From NCBI GenBank assembly GCA_030710605.1, contig CP092874.1:23717634-23781633 (forward strand): DNA of 64,000 nt, in the 5' to 3' direction. This DNA is from Cordylochernes scorpioides (Eukaryota; Arthropoda; Arachnida; Pseudoscorpiones; Chernetidae). Below are positions 3,545-45,933 of this stretch, piece after piece (position 1 is the stretch's first letter; every line of letters begins with the position of its first letter). The notes below the pieces were generated by a model, which did not search any database, was not told the DNA's origin, and saw only the letters and a list, made by a program, of their open reading frames with translations. Both the position numbers and the translations under genes were made by a program.

Positions 3545-4870
3545 TGAAGCTCCTCTATGATTGAGGGGGAAGGGGGAGAAAAATAAGACTTCTAGCAGTC
3601 GTAGGGAGATATGTAAATAGAATGATATATGCAATTGTTGACTACTCTGTGCAACAGTTTTTTTAACATTATAACTACAAGATAACAAGACCAAATCCAA
3701 ATAAATTAATAGTGTGTGATGTTTCTGTAACACTGTTGTTATCATCATCAGAGAAAAGAATCAAAGAGACAAAAAAATCATTCTTTTGTCTAATGATGAT
3801 AACAACACTGTTGCCGTAATGTCACACACTGTTACTTTAATTGAATTTGATTTCATTATCTTGTAGTTCTAATTTATAATCTAAAATTGTACCTTATCAT
3901 TAATTACACTATAAAAAATTGAGGTTGCAAGCGCTTTATAGTATTGAGAACTCTTCTTATGGCTTATTTAAAGAAAAAAAATAGTAAAGAAAAAAAAACG
4001 CTACCCATTTTTCTTTAAATAGGCTAATAGAACAGCTCTCTATACTCTTTGCCAACTTGATTTTTAATAATGTAATTGAGAAACGTTGTTGCACATATTA
4101 CTGGAATATTTCATATAGAATGTCTGCAATTTGCCAAATAGGTTTTATAGGATTTATATATGTCATAATATATACTCTTCCAGGAATAATAAAGCAAACC
4201 TACAGTCAACCCAGAGATAGACGGGAGGGTAAGGACCGGTCACTTTAGACATCAGCGACATTCCAAGGGGCGACAACTGGGGTCCGTTACTTGGAACCTC
4301 GGGACTTTTAAGACAGTTGGGGATTGTGTGCGACATGAACAGCCGCCCGGCTTTGCCGGGCACAGCTCTCTCTCTGGTTGTCTGGGATTCCTCTTCCAAA
4401 CTTGTGGTGTCCTTATTTCTCTTTCCCCACCTTATTATATTGCCACATATATATATTTGAAGCTCCTATATCATTGGGGGGGAAGGGGGAGAAAAATAAG
4501 ACTTCTAGCAGTCATAGGGAGATATGTAAATAGAATGATATATGCAATTGTTGACTACTCTGTGCAACAGTTTTTTTTAACTACAAGTTAACACGACCAA
4601 ATCCAAATAAATTAATAGTGTGTGATGTTTATATATATTTGTCTATTACATCGCATAACTACAAGAAAATGAGACCTAATCCAAATAAATTAAGTGTGTG
4701 ACGTTTCTGTAACAGTGTTGTTACCATCATCAGGCAGTCATTTATTCTTTTGTCTGATGGATGATAACAACGCTGTTACCGAAACGTCACTCACTATTTA
4801 TTTATTTTGGATTAGGTCTTATTTTCTTGTAGCTATAATCTATAATTCAAAATTGTGCTTTATCATATTA
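3545..4870. repeat. Duplicated block with F foldbacks
   Basis: A 120-bp segment (GAAGCTCCTCTATGATTGAG ... GACTACTCTGTGCAACAG) occurs at 3545-3663 and again at 4455-4575, each followed directly by an F element (3676-3900; truncated 4580-4640). Another full F lies at 4662-4868. Between them, 3905-4450 shows no recognised feature apart from a short inverted pair around the ACACGGCC-free stretch 3960-4025 (AAAGAAAAAAAATAG / complement). Confidence 0.75.
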
Positions 4871-6379: not shown

Positions 6380-6630
6380 CTCAAATAAGGCCTAATCAAA
6401 ATAATTTAATAGTGTGTGACATTTAAGTAACAGCATTGTTACCATCATCAGATAAAAGAATAAAAAAAATATATATATATTTTAAATTTATTATTATTAT
6501 TTTTTTTTTATATATACTTTTGTCTGATGATGGTAACAATGCTGTTACCGAAACACCACACACTATTAAATTAATTGGATTATGTCTTACTTTCTTGTAT
6601 CTATAATCTATAATTCAAATTGTGCAACTG
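6380..6630. mobile_element. F foldback
   Basis: Arms from AATAAGGCCTAATCAAAATA to TTGTATCTATAATCTATAA, with an AT-rich centre. Stem GGTAACA / TGTTACC and GAAACACCACACACTA (core partly mutated). Confidence 0.87.
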
Positions 6631-18627: not shown

Positions 18628-21600
18628 CCCTTGGCAGAGCTGACTGCTATAGGGCGCGTCCCCAGGTGGCGGATAGGGGAACGACCTTCAGATATGAAGG
18701 CCAGCTGCGAAACAAGCAGAATAACTCTGACGAATAAGCAGTCGCGGACCAACAGCAGCATTGTTAGAAGAGGAGTAGACCTCTTTAAAAATCCTGACTT
18801 CAACTGGCCCGGTTGATGGACCTCAGCAAGGGTCCCACTCCAGGGATACGGAGGAGCTGTGTCTGTACTCATGTTAGAGTCGGCAGCAAAGGCGTCTGCT
18901 TCCATGTTAGGAACGGCCTCAAACTACAGGCAAAGTCAGACTTTCACCAAAGTGTGCCTGGATCATGGTGCCATGATCAACGAAAGCTGCACCCCTATAC
19001 CCCATTCCATGAGATCAGATGTTGATTTGCATGCTGCATCGCCCGTCACGCAGAATAAACAGGGGCGCGTTCAGGACTTAGGTAGAGGGTTCTGTCCGAT
19101 AAGTATAATACAGTCTCCACAAACTTCTAACTTTGCAGCTTCCAAGCAATTGAGCATTCTGCAGTGCAACATCAATGGATTGTGCTCAACAGCAACAAAA
19201 ATAAAATTAGAAGAAATAATGGAAATAGCTGAAAAACAAAAGATACAAATTATAGCCCTACAGGAAACCAAATTAAATGAAAAGTACAATCTCAAATATA
19301 AAAACTACAATATCCTCAGAAAAGACAGAAATAAAGAAGGGGGTGGCCTTGCATTTTTAATCAAGAATTTGTACTATGAAGACATAGCCATTAATATTCC
19401 AAACACATCAGACCTCGAAGCCCAAGGTATCAAAGTCTACCTCAATCAAAACAAAACCATCAACATATTCAATATGTATCACCCTCCAAACAATAAACTT
19501 ATTGACGATGGAACAATGGCTCAATTTCTTACAGACAACACTATTATTGTAGGTGATCTTAATGCCAAACATCAACTATGGGGATGTTTCACGCCAAACC
19601 CAAGAGGCAAAATACTTTCAAACTTATTTGACGACAATGCCTTCATGTGCTTAAATGATGGGAATCCTACCCACCATTCCTACAGTTATAATACCGCACA
19701 AGCCCTTGATATAAGTTTCTCCAGTCCTGACATTTTCCACAAATGCAAATGGCAAATATTAAAAAGTATTGGAAGTGATCATTTGCCTATTTTGATAGAA
19801 ATTAGCACCAAGACCAAAACCAGCTCAATTAAAGAAAAATTCTGGAACTTCAAAAAGGCTAATTGGAATCTTTACCAGCAAAACACCAATGAAGACTTTA
19901 GAAAAGCACCCACTAGAATAAAAGATCTGGAACAAAATTGGATATCTTTCAAAAACACCATTATTAAAGCAGCCAAAGTTTCAATACCAAGAGGTAATAT
20001 TAAGAAATGGATTCCAAATTATACACACCAGGCAAAAGATATTCAAACACTTATAACTAAAAGAAATGAACTACAAAAAAAGTGCACCCAAAACCAAACA
20101 AATTGTAGAACTGAACTGAACATTGTGAATGCAAAAATAAAAAGATTATACGTAAATATGAAAAGGGAAAAATGGAAACAAACTTGTGAAAACCTGAACC
20201 CAAGAAACCCTAATACAAAACTTTGGCATTTGGCAAAACAAATTGACAGAGCCCAGCCACAAACTGAAAACACAAATATGATTAAGAATACAGATGGTAC
20301 CCCAGCAACTAATGACAAAAATGCTGCTAATCTTTTAGGTAATTCATATCAAATAAGTAGTAAAATCAAATTTGAAATAAAAGATAAGAAAGTTGAAAAA
20401 AAGGCCCGAAAGATTATCCATGACTGTAAAAACGTCACTAGCACTCATAATATTTTCCATGAAAAAATCAATATGAAAGAGCTAGATTATGCATTAGAAA
20501 ACACTGACCTAAACAAGACTCCTGGGCCAGATGGAATCCATGGCCAAATGATATCAAACTTGGGCAAAAATGGCAAAGAAAAACTTCTTGATATTTTCAA
20601 TAACTCCTGGAAAACTGGAAAATTGCCTCAAGACTGGAAAACTGCAACAATAATTCCTATTAAAAAACTTGACAAATCTGCTGATGACCCAAAAAACTAC
20701 CGACCTATCTCCCTCACAAGTATTTGCTGCAAATTAATGGAAAAAATTATACTCAGACGACTCACCTACCACCTCGACACAAGAAATCTCTTACCAAAAG
20801 AACAATATGGATTTAGGAAAGGACATGGGACAATAGACCAACTTTTATTTTTCACACAAAAGGTAAAAGATGCACAAAACAGAAAACCAACTAGCCACAC
20901 CATAGCCGCTTTTTTAGACCTTACACAAGCTTTTGATAAAGTATGGAAAAACAAGTTAATTACAAAATTATACAAGCATTTCAAAATTGATGGAAAAGCT
21001 ATCACTTGGATAAATGATTTCCTTAAAAATAGATACATCAGGGTCAAATATAATGGAACTCTATCTAAAACCTTCAAATTGTACCAAGGATTACCACAAG
21101 GATCAGTCCTTAGCCCAACTCTCTTCACCCTATTTATTGCAGGCATAGAAGAAAAAATTTCACATAAAACCAATATTGGACTTTTCGCTGATGACATTAT
21201 TCTATGGAGCAGCAATACTAACTGGAAAAAAGCTGAAAGGGATTTGAACAAGACTCTTTTCCACCTAGAAAAATTTGCTAATAAACATAAATTAGAATTT
21301 AACCCCCAAAAATCTGAAACCTGTCTTTTTACTACCGATAAGAAACTATACAAAATAAGACCAAAAATTATTCTGAAAGAACAACAATTGCAATATAATA
21401 AACATCCTAAATATCTTGGCTACACCCTGGATCCAGAAATTAACTCCAGTAAACATATTGAAGAAGTTATTAGAAAAGGAAGAGACCGACTAAAAATCCT
21501 GAAATATATTTCAGGAAGAGAGTGGGGAGCCGATGCAACCACTCTAAAATTAACTTACACATCTCTAATTAGACCTATCCTGGAATATGGATATCAAATC

Positions 21601-22851
21601 TATGGTACAGCATCTGAAACAAATCTAAAATCACTGGAAAGGATACAACTAAGTGCAGCTAGAATTATTACAGGTCTTCGAAATACCTGCCCTAATGATA
21701 TTGTACTTTACGAGGCCGACATTATGCCCTTAAAGGATAGAAGAAGCTACAATCTGCCAAAATATATAAACAAAATCAAGAGTTATGGAAACAAACACAG
21801 AACTTCCAAGTACATACTTAATTGGGAATCCAATTTAAGACTCAAAAAAGAAGGCCCTCTACACCTGGCCAAAAGAAATGAATTTTTAAAATATAAAGTG
21901 GAAAAAAATTATTTAGCAGAAAAAATTTCTCCATGCAAACCACTACAAGATGTTATTTTTAATGCCACTTTAAATGAGCCCACCAACAAACAATACCAAA
22001 ATCCAGAATACTTAAAACAATTATCATTAGAAATAATTAATAACATTCCTAAAAATGCAATAACTATCTATACCGATGGTAGCAGAGACGAGCTAGGACA
22101 CACTGGCAGTGGCTGTCTCATCAAAACCACAAATGGCATTGAGAAAATGAACAGAAGAAACCCAGATTTTTGCTCAGTCTTCAGATCAGAACTTATAGCC
22201 ATCTATGAAGCCTTAAAATCCATCAGAAATACTAATTATCAAGATATCTGGATTCTCACTGATAGTAGAAGTGCCATACAACACTTGAGTCACACAGGGG
22301 AACTCAGAGACAAAGTAAGCAGGAACATAATTGGTTATCTCCAAAAACTCTCAAAAACCTCAAAAATTCACCTTCAATGGATACCCTCACACGTTGGCAT
22401 TGAAGGCAATGAGGCTGCTGATGTGCTAGCGAAAAAAGGCACAAAAGAACCCTTGCCACAGAAAAATAAACTTACTTTTAAAGAAATAGAAACAATAGCC
22501 AAAACAAAAATAAACAAGAACTGGAGGATCCCACCTAAGCACAGTTGGTACAGTGGAGTGAACCCAGGAGGAGCTCTGAAGATCAGAAATAGACAGCATC
22601 AAACAACACTAACAAGATTTAGAACGGGCCATCTCAAGCCATTGAAGATAGAAAATAATAACAAAATTTATCCCACTTGCCCAAAATGTAGTTTGGTACC
22701 TGCGGCTCCAGAACACATTTTGGCTTGCATTAGATGCACTAAGCGGGACCTTTGGGAGAGGCCGCTGCTCATCATAAAACAGCTCGAGGAGCATGAACTC
22801 ATGGAATTCGTGTAATCTTTACACAAGGGGATAAGAAACAACAACAACAAC
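18628..22851 (+). mobile_element. LINE-A: full-length non-LTR retrotransposon
   Basis: A 4.2 kb element inserted into the middle of an S1 SINE, flanked by a 13-bp duplication ACACATGTGAAAA (18615-18627 and 22852-22864). The undisturbed target is seen at 51117-51129 in the second gene copy. It has a GC-richer 5' UTR of about 240 bp, one long ORF and a very short 3' UTR. It ends in hairpin GTGTAA-TCT-TTACAC, then AAGGGGATAAG and an (AAC)n tail. The intact ORF and nearly perfect duplication indicate a recent insertion. By domain order (APE endonuclease, RT, RNase H) it belongs to the Jockey/I-like LINE group; the exact clade needs a phylogeny. Confidence 0.95.
18871..22815 (+). CDS. LINE-A endonuclease / reverse transcriptase / RNase H polyprotein
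   Basis: An uninterrupted ORF of 1314 aa from the first ATG (the open frame extends to a GTG at 18859). It nicks target DNA and copies the element's RNA into the nick. Residue numbers below are approximate, counted from 18859. The APE-type endonuclease spans about 95-310, with LQETKLN (about 135), GDLNAKH (about 233) and the catalytic SDHLPI (about 306). The reverse transcriptase spans about 550-830, with LPQGSVLSP (about 747) and FADDI (about 776). RNase H spans about 1068-1195, with IYTDGSR, ELIAIYEAL, LTDSRSA and a final WIPSHVGIEGNEAADVLAKK block. The C-terminus has a Cys/His knuckle, CPKCS...PEHILACIRC. There is no separate gag-like ORF upstream. All catalytic motifs look intact. Confidence 0.95.
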   Translation: MLESAAKASASMLGTASNYRQSQTFTKVCLDHGAMINESCTPIPHSMRSDVDLHAASPVTQNKQGRVQDLGRGFCPISIIQSPQTSNFAASKQLSILQCNINGLCSTATKIKLEEIMEIAEKQKIQIIALQETKLNEKYNLKYKNYNILRKDRNKEGGGLAFLIKNLYYEDIAINIPNTSDLEAQGIKVYLNQNKTINIFNMYHPPNNKLIDDGTMAQFLTDNTIIVGDLNAKHQLWGCFTPNPRGKILSNLFDDNAFMCLNDGNPTHHSYSYNTAQALDISFSSPDIFHKCKWQILKSIGSDHLPILIEISTKTKTSSIKEKFWNFKKANWNLYQQNTNEDFRKAPTRIKDLEQNWISFKNTIIKAAKVSIPRGNIKKWIPNYTHQAKDIQTLITKRNELQKKCTQNQTNCRTELNIVNAKIKRLYVNMKREKWKQTCENLNPRNPNTKLWHLAKQIDRAQPQTENTNMIKNTDGTPATNDKNAANLLGNSYQISSKIKFEIKDKKVEKKARKIIHDCKNVTSTHNIFHEKINMKELDYALENTDLNKTPGPDGIHGQMISNLGKNGKEKLLDIFNNSWKTGKLPQDWKTATIIPIKKLDKSADDPKNYRPISLTSICCKLMEKIILRRLTYHLDTRNLLPKEQYGFRKGHGTIDQLLFFTQKVKDAQNRKPTSHTIAAFLDLTQAFDKVWKNKLITKLYKHFKIDGKAITWINDFLKNRYIRVKYNGTLSKTFKLYQGLPQGSVLSPTLFTLFIAGIEEKISHKTNIGLFADDIILWSSNTNWKKAERDLNKTLFHLEKFANKHKLEFNPQKSETCLFTTDKKLYKIRPKIILKEQQLQYNKHPKYLGYTLDPEINSSKHIEEVIRKGRDRLKILKYISGREWGADATTLKLTYTSLIRPILEYGYQIYGTASETNLKSLERIQLSAARIITGLRNTCPNDIVLYEADIMPLKDRRSYNLPKYINKIKSYGNKHRTSKYILNWESNLRLKKEGPLHLAKRNEFLKYKVEKNYLAEKISPCKPLQDVIFNATLNEPTNKQYQNPEYLKQLSLEIINNIPKNAITIYTDGSRDELGHTGSGCLIKTTNGIEKMNRRNPDFCSVFRSELIAIYEALKSIRNTNYQDIWILTDSRSAIQHLSHTGELRDKVSRNIIGYLQKLSKTSKIHLQWIPSHVGIEGNEAADVLAKKGTKEPLPQKNKLTFKEIETIAKTKINKNWRIPPKHSWYSGVNPGGALKIRNRQHQTTLTRFRTGHLKPLKIENNNKIYPTCPKCSLVPAAPEHILACIRCTKRDLWERPLLIIKQLEEHELMEFV

Positions 22852-34910: not shown

Positions 34911-35006
34911 GATCTTGACTGTCTAATACCACTTGTCCATCTAGTTACTGTACATACAGCCAAGTAGGTTGGGATTTGAGAAATGGTTGAATTATAGTTG
35001 GGAATG

Positions 35007-35379
35007 AAAAAATAGTACAAAAGTAATATTGTACTGGGATAAGGTGCATAAATTAAGAAAAAGGCATCTACTTATCGTGCAACTGAAAGTTTTGTAGCGT
35101 TCTCACACAATTCTGGCCTTAACTACCCGTTTCATGATTTTTCAGGATGCCTTAATGACCAATTTTTTGGTCGTTGAGGTACAGCTTGCACCACGCTGAT
35201 GAGGGCCAACAGCCCGAAACGCGTCCGTGGTTAGCTTTTCTTGATTAATCAAGAATGGGTATTTGGCCAATTCTGGAATAATTAAAAAATCAACGAATAG
35301 TTGATATTTATTCCAATAGATGGCGCAAGCCATCAGCAACTTTCAGTTGCACGATAAGTAGATGCCTTTTTCTTAATTA
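35007..35379 (+). mobile_element. Hammerhead-bearing retroelement (retrozyme/Penelope-like)
   Basis: 373 bp flanked by the 13-bp duplication ATAGTTGGGAATG (34994-35006, 35380-35392). Inside are inverted arms of about 42 bp (35050-35091 and 35338-35379: AAGAAAAAGGCATCTACTTA versus its complement). The ribozyme sits midway. There is no ORF. The long duplication favours retroposition over cut-and-paste. Penelope-like elements carry hammerheads in their terminal repeats and often have inverted ends, so a non-autonomous derivative of one is the best reading. Confidence 0.8.
35183..35236 (+). ncRNA. Type I hammerhead self-cleaving ribozyme
   Basis: All hammerhead core bases are present in order. 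Stem I 5' strand is ACCACG (35190-35195) and core CTGATGA is at 35196-35202. Stem II is GGGC / GCCC closing the loop CAACA (35203-35215), then GAAA (35216-35219). Stem III is the palindrome ACGCGT (35219-35224) and the cleavage C is 35225. Stem I 3' strand CGTGGT (35226-35231) pairs perfectly with the 5' strand. An outer AGCT/AGCT helix (35183-35186, 35233-35236) lies beyond a 3x1 internal loop, where tertiary contacts form in type I ribozymes. The very short self-complementary stem III is the form known from Penelope-like elements and animal retrozymes, which often cleave as dimers. Cleavage would fall between 35225 and 35226. Activity is inferred. Confidence 0.92.
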
Positions 35380-35464
35380 ATAGTTGGGAATGTGTGTTGG
35401 ATCAAAGTGGGTTGAGGTGAGGAAGTAACACAAGTTAGAAGAACAAATCCAAATAATAGAAAAT

Positions 35465-35905: not shown

Positions 35906-35967
35906 CCATAATTGTAGGTTGGATTTTGAGTTTGTTTCAATTTGAAGACTTCAATCAACCTTTTTAT

Positions 35968-36118
35968 AAATTAAGAAAAAGGCATCTCCTTATTGTGCAA
36001 CTGAAAGTTACTGTTGGTTTGTTAATCCATGATTCAGTTACAAGATAAGGAGATGTCTTTTGTCTTAATTTATCCACCATATCTCAGTATAATTTCACAT
36101 TTGTACTATTTTTTTTTT
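35968..36118 (-). mobile_element. Short ribozyme-less relative of the 35007 element
   Basis: Carries the same inverted arms (AAGAAAAAGGCATCTCCTTA and complement) and the same AATAGTACAAA end, but inverted and with the centre, including the hammerhead, missing. An approximate 12-bp duplication AA(C)CTTTTTATA flanks it (about 35956-35967 and 36121-36130). Confidence 0.75.
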
Positions 36119-36142: not shown

Positions 36143-36365
36143 ATAAGGCATAATTTGTATTATAGATTATAAACACACGGTAACAAGACCAAATCCAAAT
36201 AAATAAATAGTGTGTGACATTTCGGTAACAGCGTTGTTACCATCTTCAGACAAAAGTACTGAAGTAATGACAAAAGTCATTCAGTACTTTTGTCTGAAGA
36301 TGGTAACAACGCTGTTACCGAAACGTCACACACTATTTATTTATTTGGTCTTATTACCTTGTGTT
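36143..36365. mobile_element. F foldback with 15-17 bp target duplication
   Basis: A full F (223 bp) between two copies of TATAAATGTTTATTG (36128-36142, 36366-36380). Each arm is almost perfectly complementary. Core CTGAAGA, stem GGTAACA-ACGC-TGTTACC, GAAACGTC. Confidence 0.92.
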
Positions 36366-37079: not shown

Positions 37080-37535
37080 GATTGTAGAAAGGCATTTGAA
37101 AATTATCCCGCATTTGTTCCTTTTGAACGCAGATTCGAAATTTATTTTAAGGAGAAATAAAAATTATTTCTAACCTTAGGGATAAAAGGATGAATTGTGA
37201 AGAGTAATGATAAACGGAAAAATAAAAGTGTCTAGGGATGGGAATCGAACCCAAAGTGTTCCGCTTACCAGGCAGATGCCATATCCACTAGGCTATCCTG
37301 GACATATTTTTCCGTTTGTAAATATTATATAAAGTAAATTTATAATACAATATAATGTGGCTTATGATTGTAGAAAGGCATTTGAAAGTTATCCCGCATT
37401 TGTTTCTTTTGAACGCAGAATCGAAATTTATTTTAAGGAGAAATAACGATTATTTCTAACCTTAGGGATGAAGTATGAAAGGATGAATTATGAAGAGAAA
37501 TGATAAACGGAAAAATATAATTTATTTATTTGGTG
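37080..37535. mobile_element. T element with tRNA-like core
   Basis: Arm (TGATTGTAGAAAGGCATTTG ... GATAAACGGAAAAATAAAAG), then a minus-strand tRNA-like core at 37232-37304 (GGATAGCCTAGTGGATATGG, TCTGC-CTGGTAA-GCGGA anticodon arm, GGGTTCGATTCCCA). A second arm at 37355-37520 repeats in the same orientation instead of inverted. The acceptor ends GTCCAGG / CCTAGAC pair with one mismatch. Confidence 0.8.
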
Positions 37536-45495: not shown

Positions 45496-45933
45496 AAACG
45501 AAAATTGAAATTATACCGCGAATGTTTCTTTTATAAAAATCGAAATTTATTTTCAAAGAGAAATAGCGACATTTCTAACTTTGAGGATGAGGTATGGAAA
45601 GGAGAAACATGAAGAGTAATGGCGAACGGAAAAATAAAAAGTGTCCAGGGGCGGGAATCGAACCCACACCCTTCTGCTTACCGGGCAGGTGCCTTGTCCA
45701 CTCGGCTACCCTGGTTCCCGGTTCCGCCGGTTTCCGGGTTCCCGGGTCCCTCGGTTCCCGCCCCTGGACACTTTTTATTTTTCCGTTCGCCATTACTCTT
45801 CATATTTCACCTTTCCATACCTCATCCTCAAAGTTAGAAATGTCGCTATTTCTCTTTGAAAATAAATTTCGATTTTTATAAAAGAAACATTCGCGGTATA
45901 ATTTCAATTTTCGTTTTACAATCATCAGCCGCG
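45496..45933. mobile_element. T foldback with tRNA-like core, second copy only
   Basis: 438 bp between copies of TTAAGAAAATTG (45482-45493, 45934-45945). The first gene copy has the unoccupied site at about 13890. Two arms of about 160 bp are nearly perfect complements (GAAAATTGAAATTATACCGC ... CGAACGGAAAAATAAAAAGT). The core, on the minus strand, reads GTAGCCGAGTGGACAAGGCA, then CCTGCCCGGTAAGCAG, then GGGTTCGATTCCCGC. It is tRNA-like with A and B boxes and a possible GGT anticodon loop (CCGGTAA). It is followed by a C/G-rich spacer of GGTTCCC repeats. Confidence 0.85.

Follow-up and report, generated by a model that had tools for sequence, protein, structure and literature searches.

A pseudoscorpion hammerhead ribozyme belongs to a retrozyme whose insertions look like products of Penelope-like elements

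How can an RNA of a few hundred nucleotides, one that encodes no protein, be written again and again into the genome of an animal? In other words, what copies it, and in what form is it copied? These questions are raised by a hammerhead ribozyme in a stretch of 64,000 nucleotides from the pseudoscorpion Cordylochernes scorpioides (contig CP092874.1, positions 23,717,634 to 23,781,633; "the window" below means this whole stretch). For the movement of animal retrozymes, with circular RNA as a possible template, the published passages on the subject so far name Penelope-like elements (PLEs) as strong or likely candidates (PMC7229834, PMC7761336). Cervera and de la Pena, in the relevant sections, call PLEs a strong candidate for the retrozyme helper (PMC7229834; also PMC7761336), because type I hammerheads and tandem copies occur in both and because the two co-exist.

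Is it a hammerhead at all? A sequence-only reading had described a complete type I hammerhead with all of the conserved core bases, a stem I of 6 bp plus an outer helix of 4 bp and a stem II of 4 bp, all perfectly paired, and the sequence matches that description:

35183..35236, plus strand: type I hammerhead ribozyme, predicted cut between 35225 and 35226
35183-35186 pairing with 35233-35236, plus strand: outer helix, AGCT/AGCT
35190-35195 pairing with 35226-35231, plus strand: stem I, ACCACG/CGTGGT
inside 35183..35236, plus strand: CTGATGA core, stem II GGGC/GCCC with loop CAACA, then GAAA
35219..35224, plus strand: palindrome ACGCGT (stem III), then C17 at 35225

The CUGANGA..GAAA..UH core is present together with stems I–III, and stem I is open, as in type I. 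The palindromic stem III is also as claimed, but a single copy cannot form its six pairs: within one copy, only an A-U pair capped by CGCG is possible, so the six pairs need two copies. Cervera and de la Pena (2020, PMC7229834) describe a stem III of the same form (a single A-U pair and a palindromic tetraloop) for the axolotl hammerhead HHR_Amex1, whose monomer shows weak cleavage in their data and whose dimer cuts well.

An Rfam search had been suggested as a check, and it did find a match, to Hammerhead_HH9 (RF02275) at 35180-35245 in a 421-base scan, but with 26.5 bits (E 1.6e-4) against a gathering score of 52; at gathering scores, a scan of the whole window reported no hammerhead. The isolated 61-nt RNA is of ordinary stability (z -1.48, with 20 of 200 shuffles as low); its predicted minimum free energy structure has core bases paired, and its predicted centroid has stems I and II with the core open. 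Such a low Rfam score and such an ordinary fold are what a chance hammerhead-like sequence might give, and yet we grant chance hardly any credence in view of the number of copies, the conservation of the core and the compensatory changes. Allowing at most 3 mismatches, we find 29,720 copies of the 30-nt ribozyme core in the host genome (2.62 Gb) and 0 of the reversed pattern. Across 28 distinct ribozyme variants, 96.2% of pair cells are paired vs. 25-41% in slid versions, both stem III pairs are paired in 28 of 28, and the covariation score (0.118) is reached by 0 of 500 shuffles. Three pairs (in stem I, stem II and the outer helix) show double changes, 8 cells in all, although the count of such pairs alone is weak as evidence, 3 being reached by 26 of 500 shuffles and by 3 of 6 slid versions. 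This set leaves out 8 of 36 variants: two gapped (one of them from a second subfamily, with its stem III palindrome broken), one with a fused 5' end and five differing only outside the helices. A custom hammerhead descriptor, written after the site had been viewed, matches this site alone on both strands of the window and gives 0 matches in 100 first-order Markov resamples. The earlier judgment that chance origin is very unlikely agrees with these counts and compensatory changes, and we take the hammerhead at 35183-35236 to be confirmed as a sequence motif, with self-cleavage as a prediction.

To what does it belong? A 351-bp query around the ribozyme gives >150 matches among those listed, from 40 scored candidates in the host assembly (2.62 Gb in 24 contigs), and many copies follow each other at 338-bp intervals in tandem arrays at other places of the genome, unlike the non-tandem copy in the window. 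Neighbors at most 1.5 kb apart among the 100 exact cores listed include 12 tandem, 8 head-to-head and 1 tail-to-tail. The unit, which we number from the predicted ribozyme cut and whose reference copy was cut from locus L010, has 338 nt and 39.6% GC, and its predicted circular fold reaches -109.4 kcal/mol vs. -66.5 +/- 5.4 for 100 shuffles, of which 0 are as low (z about -8). Its ribozyme sits in a tandem unit within the ~170-400 nt range of retrozymes, its GC is <50%, its predicted circle is strongly self-paired, its target duplications exceed 4 bp and it has no coding capacity. In the features that the published account gives for metazoan non-LTR retrozymes (PMC7229834), these elements agree: a type I hammerhead in a tandem 170-400 nt unit with GC <50% and target duplications >4 bp, a strongly self-paired circle (predicted here), thousands of copies and a weak helix III. 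The motif would, then, belong to an animal non-LTR retrozyme as its ribozyme, the unit being 338 nt long; within what sequence can show, the connection with retrozymes and PLEs that the sequence-only reading made is supported. Neither a 25-nt pattern matched exactly against viral contigs nor a blastn search of phages with 601 bases found anything. The second subfamily of the retrozyme, with a related ribozyme, shares ~70-72% of its sequence with the unit (L008:1974-2220, L027:289-797, L028:2126-2358); its ribozyme pair changes are compensated in L027, L028 and L040, its stem II and palindrome are altered in L008 and in L028 it too lies head to head.

The copy in the window is a 373-bp insertion of two head-to-head arms flanked by 13-bp target duplications, and it has a neighbor of the same family:

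34994..35006, no strand: target-site duplication, left copy, ATAGTTGGGAATG, 13-bp direct repeat abutting the insertion
35007..35091, minus strand: left arm, the retrozyme unit inverted (unit positions ~200 to 114) and 98% identical to the reference, ending outward at site B
35092..35379, plus strand: right arm, the unit in direct orientation, which starts at ~203, includes the ribozyme and ends at site A (..CCTTTTTCTTAAT); 98% identical to the reference
35380..35392, no strand: target-site duplication, right copy, ATAGTTGGGAATG, 13-bp direct repeat abutting the insertion
35966..36114, no strand: a further insertion of this family, again head to head but lacking the ribozyme; CTTTTTATAAAT flanks each side

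The outer ends of the window copy are thus site B (unit ~200) on the left and site A (unit ~157) on the right. The neighbor is more diverged, with arms of unit 157-102 and 118-198 at 91% and 88% identity. This surrounding anatomy, with its target duplications, head-to-head arms and two fixed ends and with 338-nt tandem units elsewhere, goes beyond what had been noticed before.

A DNA transposon (MITE) with terminal inverted repeats, in which the hammerhead is incidental, could account for the 44-nt inverted ends of the window copy. Those 44 nt are, however, the unit positions that both arms have in common and not a constant transposon end: from copy to copy, the inverted stretch varies in length and content, many copies have one arm and some arms run for several laps of the unit. 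Constant inverted ends are what such a transposon should have, and we reject this very improbable reading; the inverted ends look like a by-product.

Where do the other copies end? The 63 elements that were scored have 101 outward ends, and 97 of these lie at site A (unit ~157) or site B (unit ~200-203), ~46 nt apart, within end windows (A, 144-160; B, 193-210) that were set after the loci had been viewed and that make up 10.4% of the unit. Two samples, both scored with one script, contribute to this count. The first comprises the first 20 position-ordered clusters of listed exact matches on one contig (C1), 17 elements after filters, and 25 of its 25 ends are at A or B; the second comprises 46 elements chosen by likeness to the window copy, so that it is enriched for two-armed copies, and gives 72 of 76. 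Among the 36 two-armed insertions for which both ends could be assigned, 35 combine an A end with a B end. By sample, 8 of 8 two-armed elements on C1 and 27 of 30 in the similarity sample show A plus B, the exceptions being L021 (B/B) and L017 and L026 (one end elsewhere). The script finds a single arm in 9 of the 17 C1 elements, and to the eye L072, L081 and L029 may have a very short second arm that it missed. Loci that duplicated others or covered the same places (L014, L042-L046, L065, L066) were left out before end and variant scoring, L007 (a duplicate of L006) was left out of end scoring only and arms of <88% identity or <30 nt were removed from end scoring, including L064 (outer end 155). 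The predicted circle has an unpaired stretch at 142-157 that ends with A and another at 192-209 that contains B, with a hairpin at 170-191 between the two.

Direct repeats of at least 9 bp border both ends of 39 of 57 elements, compared with 13.4% for shuffled partners; if the repeat must contain more than two letters, the numbers are 30 of 57 and 6.3%. Such repeats are absent from 18 of 57, and 9 of the 39 are two-letter runs. Six of the 63 elements, all fragments, are not in this count (L001:2427, L003:1357, L021:1186, L021:2106, L030:512, L035:2821). Of 40 arms tallied in 20 elements of the similarity sample, 13 are longer than one unit. Over all the loci, arms make up to 5.6 laps.

Target duplications and inverted arms are not foreign to LINEs. 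Target duplications of such size and 5' inversions occur with LINEs, LINE-1 is known for twin-priming products that pair an inverted segment with target duplications, as here, and a LINE-type frame lies inside the window (18859-22815). Might a LINE reverse transcriptase have moved linear retrozyme RNA by target-primed reverse transcription, the head-to-head arms being twin priming? We think this unlikely. The second arm of a twin-priming product has a variable starting point, whereas the outer ends of the retrozymes cluster at two internal places 46 nt apart; some arms, unlike those of twin priming, exceed one lap (the 13 of 40 mentioned above), and at the insertion ends inspected there is no 3' run of A.

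If arms can run for several laps, what was the template? At 7 diagnostic positions, laps within one arm differ in 5 of 308 comparisons, arms within one element in 28 of 249 and separate elements in 11,996 of 38,621. Of the 28 arm differences, 21 come from L019, because there the script merged two neighboring insertions, and without L019 the count is 7 of 219. When all variants are used, laps have a Jaccard index of 0.525 and 10.4 differences per kb, arms of one element 0.150 and 25.5 (few variants are common to both) and separate elements 0.046 and 32.9. That second comparison had suggested separate templates for the two arms, a view that was reversed at the 7 diagnostic positions; we read the discrepancy as the work of later private mutations and of the merged L019. 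In L080, with 5.6 laps, six variants are common to the laps and one lap has two extra changes.

This sharing of variants between laps and arms fits copying round and round one RNA circle, and a homogeneous multimer would be compatible with it as well. The template might, that is, have been a multimeric linear transcript of a homogeneous array, copied by PLE machinery with no role for circles. Near-identical tandem arrays exist and would yield equal lap-to-lap identity, the last lap of L027 is missing two variants that its other two laps have, and Frangieh et al., in the part of their study that treats templates, proposed multi-copy PLE mRNA or unprocessed RNA (PMC11167929). Against this stands an argument rather than a test: arrays must come from somewhere, and a circle copied by rolling would provide them. 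We consider the linear multimer a real but lesser possibility, and we lean, by no great amount, toward retrozyme circles that undergo rolling reverse transcription from two internal starts, both strands of one Penelope staggered break being extended on the same circle.

Why Penelope? The retrozyme insertions have two fixed ends, head-to-head arms and short target duplications, the marks of a Penelope-type insertion. Like PLEs as the pertinent sections of two reports present them (PMC11167929, PMC3846280), they combine inverted repeats in head-to-head order, sometimes with a tail at one end, with short duplications of AT-rich targets, and their hammerhead lies upstream of the start sites. In the account given of A. 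vaga, PLEs carry inverted repeats and a tail of 31 bp, and their duplications measure 8-10 bp (Arkhipova et al. 2013, PMC3846280). For the Anolis PLE protein, the experiments presented have both target strands cut and extended (Frangieh et al. 2024, PMC11167929), and the same text defines the tail by two adjacent internal RNA start sites of the reverse transcriptase and terms it unique to PLEs. The in vitro work described there also found that insertion did not need ribozyme cleavage and that the PLE ribozyme required protein to cut (PMC11167929). What sets the present retrozymes apart from the published metazoan ones is that their insertions are two-armed and head to head, with a tail and two preferred ends. 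In the main text of PMC7229834, the words "inverted," "head-to-head" and "tail" each occur 0 times, and among the open-licence PMC papers listed we found no report of such an end signature on retrozymes.

The host has PLEs of its own. GIY-YIG frames are common: a first look gave 17,015 candidates, and 146 matches came from the 150 that were scored. Five of 15 PLE-region loci (L048, L051, L058, L060, L061) contain a minimal hammerhead whose stem III palindrome is ACGT. The complete PLEs L058 and L061 have head-to-head arms with a tail on only one arm and target duplications of 11-12 bp, (G)ATTCAGGTAAT on both sides, and 12-14 bp, (AT)TAAAAATATTAT on both sides, respectively; the L058 target is itself a tandem repeat. 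Among 47 matches to the 3' region of L060, 7 end at query 433-441 and 2 at 397-398, which gives a tail of ~38 nt, while 36 reach the query end and 2 stop at 98. The end spacing of the retrozyme, 46 nt, is slightly above the published 30-40 nt, and that of the resident PLE is 36-44 nt. A large head-to-head PLE (L057, L062, L063) has arms >5 kb that are 99% alike, and its GIY-YIG part precedes its reverse transcriptase part, an order that we take to resemble Naiad; no hammerhead pattern was found in the L057 part of this Naiad-like PLE.

Retrozyme and PLE are nevertheless different things. An element that counts as a PLE encodes a reverse transcriptase, with or without a GIY-YIG endonuclease, and we do not class the retrozyme as one because a 338-nt unit is too short to encode a reverse transcriptase. 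Its hammerhead is fuller, with an outer helix, and no sequence homology to the 15 resident PLE-region loci was found: strong matches occur only in L050, where they look like nested retrozyme remnants, and the rest have E 0.017 or worse. A sequence common to retrozyme and PLE was accordingly rejected on this comparison, and the lack of homology counts against PLEs as helper, in that it leaves recognition in trans without explanation. Near site B, the retrozyme has CTATTTTTTC and the PLE has CTATCTTTTCG or a close variant, a short resemblance that may be a lead. Hairpins also lie upstream of the ribozymes, GCGTTCTCACGC in the retrozyme (unit ~210-221) and GCGTGAGAACGC in the PLE L060, and could be chance.

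The genome displays a conserved ribozyme, tandem units, preferred ends at A and B with one of each per two-armed insertion, target duplications, variants common to laps and arms and a PLE-like layout, and the insertions appear, on these grounds, to be PLE products. We think it probable that retrozyme RNA, itself probably circular, is reverse-transcribed by PLE machinery, with both cut strands priming. Transcription, cleavage, circularization and the identity of the enzyme are what we infer, and the cycle might run as follows. Tandem retrozyme copies would be transcribed, and hammerheads, probably dimerized through ACGCGU, would cut the RNA to monomers that would then be circularized. A PLE reverse transcriptase/endonuclease would nick both strands of an AT-rich target ~10-14 bp apart, and each free 3' end would prime copying of one RNA at a fixed internal site, A or B. 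Copies would vary in length, some covering less than one lap and others several, and the two cDNAs would be joined head to head.

What would this mean? The two-start signature of PLEs, the variants common to laps and arms and the one start per target end make the guess about the helper testable, and a single 338-nt RNA circle together with purified PLE protein would serve to try the predictions. If the cycle is true, the origin of tandem hammerhead repeats is explained; if rolling copying of circles from two starts is true, it is what makes the hammerhead "satellites" of animals, and PLEs are settled as the helper.

A few smaller observations belong here. In the left arm of L076:321-762, the first piece starts from 152 and is followed by a ~115-nt sub-lap, unit 54 back to 278, that is repeated, as if the enzyme had jumped at one place in every round. 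Within the window, foldback elements at 3655-3835, 4655-4805, 6380-6580 and 36170-36365 carry a hammerhead-like core in one or both arms (CTGATGATGGTAAC..GTTACCGAAACGTC), some with an ACGT palindrome and possibly with a 3-bp stem I (TGT/ACA); they could represent short derivatives of PLE type. Apart from the ribozyme, the window has three CTGATGA..GAAAC matches, all of them within small foldback elements. At 5 contig ends of the assembly, 240 bases each, no telomere repeat was seen. The LINE frame at 18859-22815 is on the plus strand and encodes 1318 aa, with endonuclease, reverse transcriptase and RNase H domains. On the minus strand, tRNA-Thr-like sequences lie at 37230-37302 (with the lower score) and 45643-45715.
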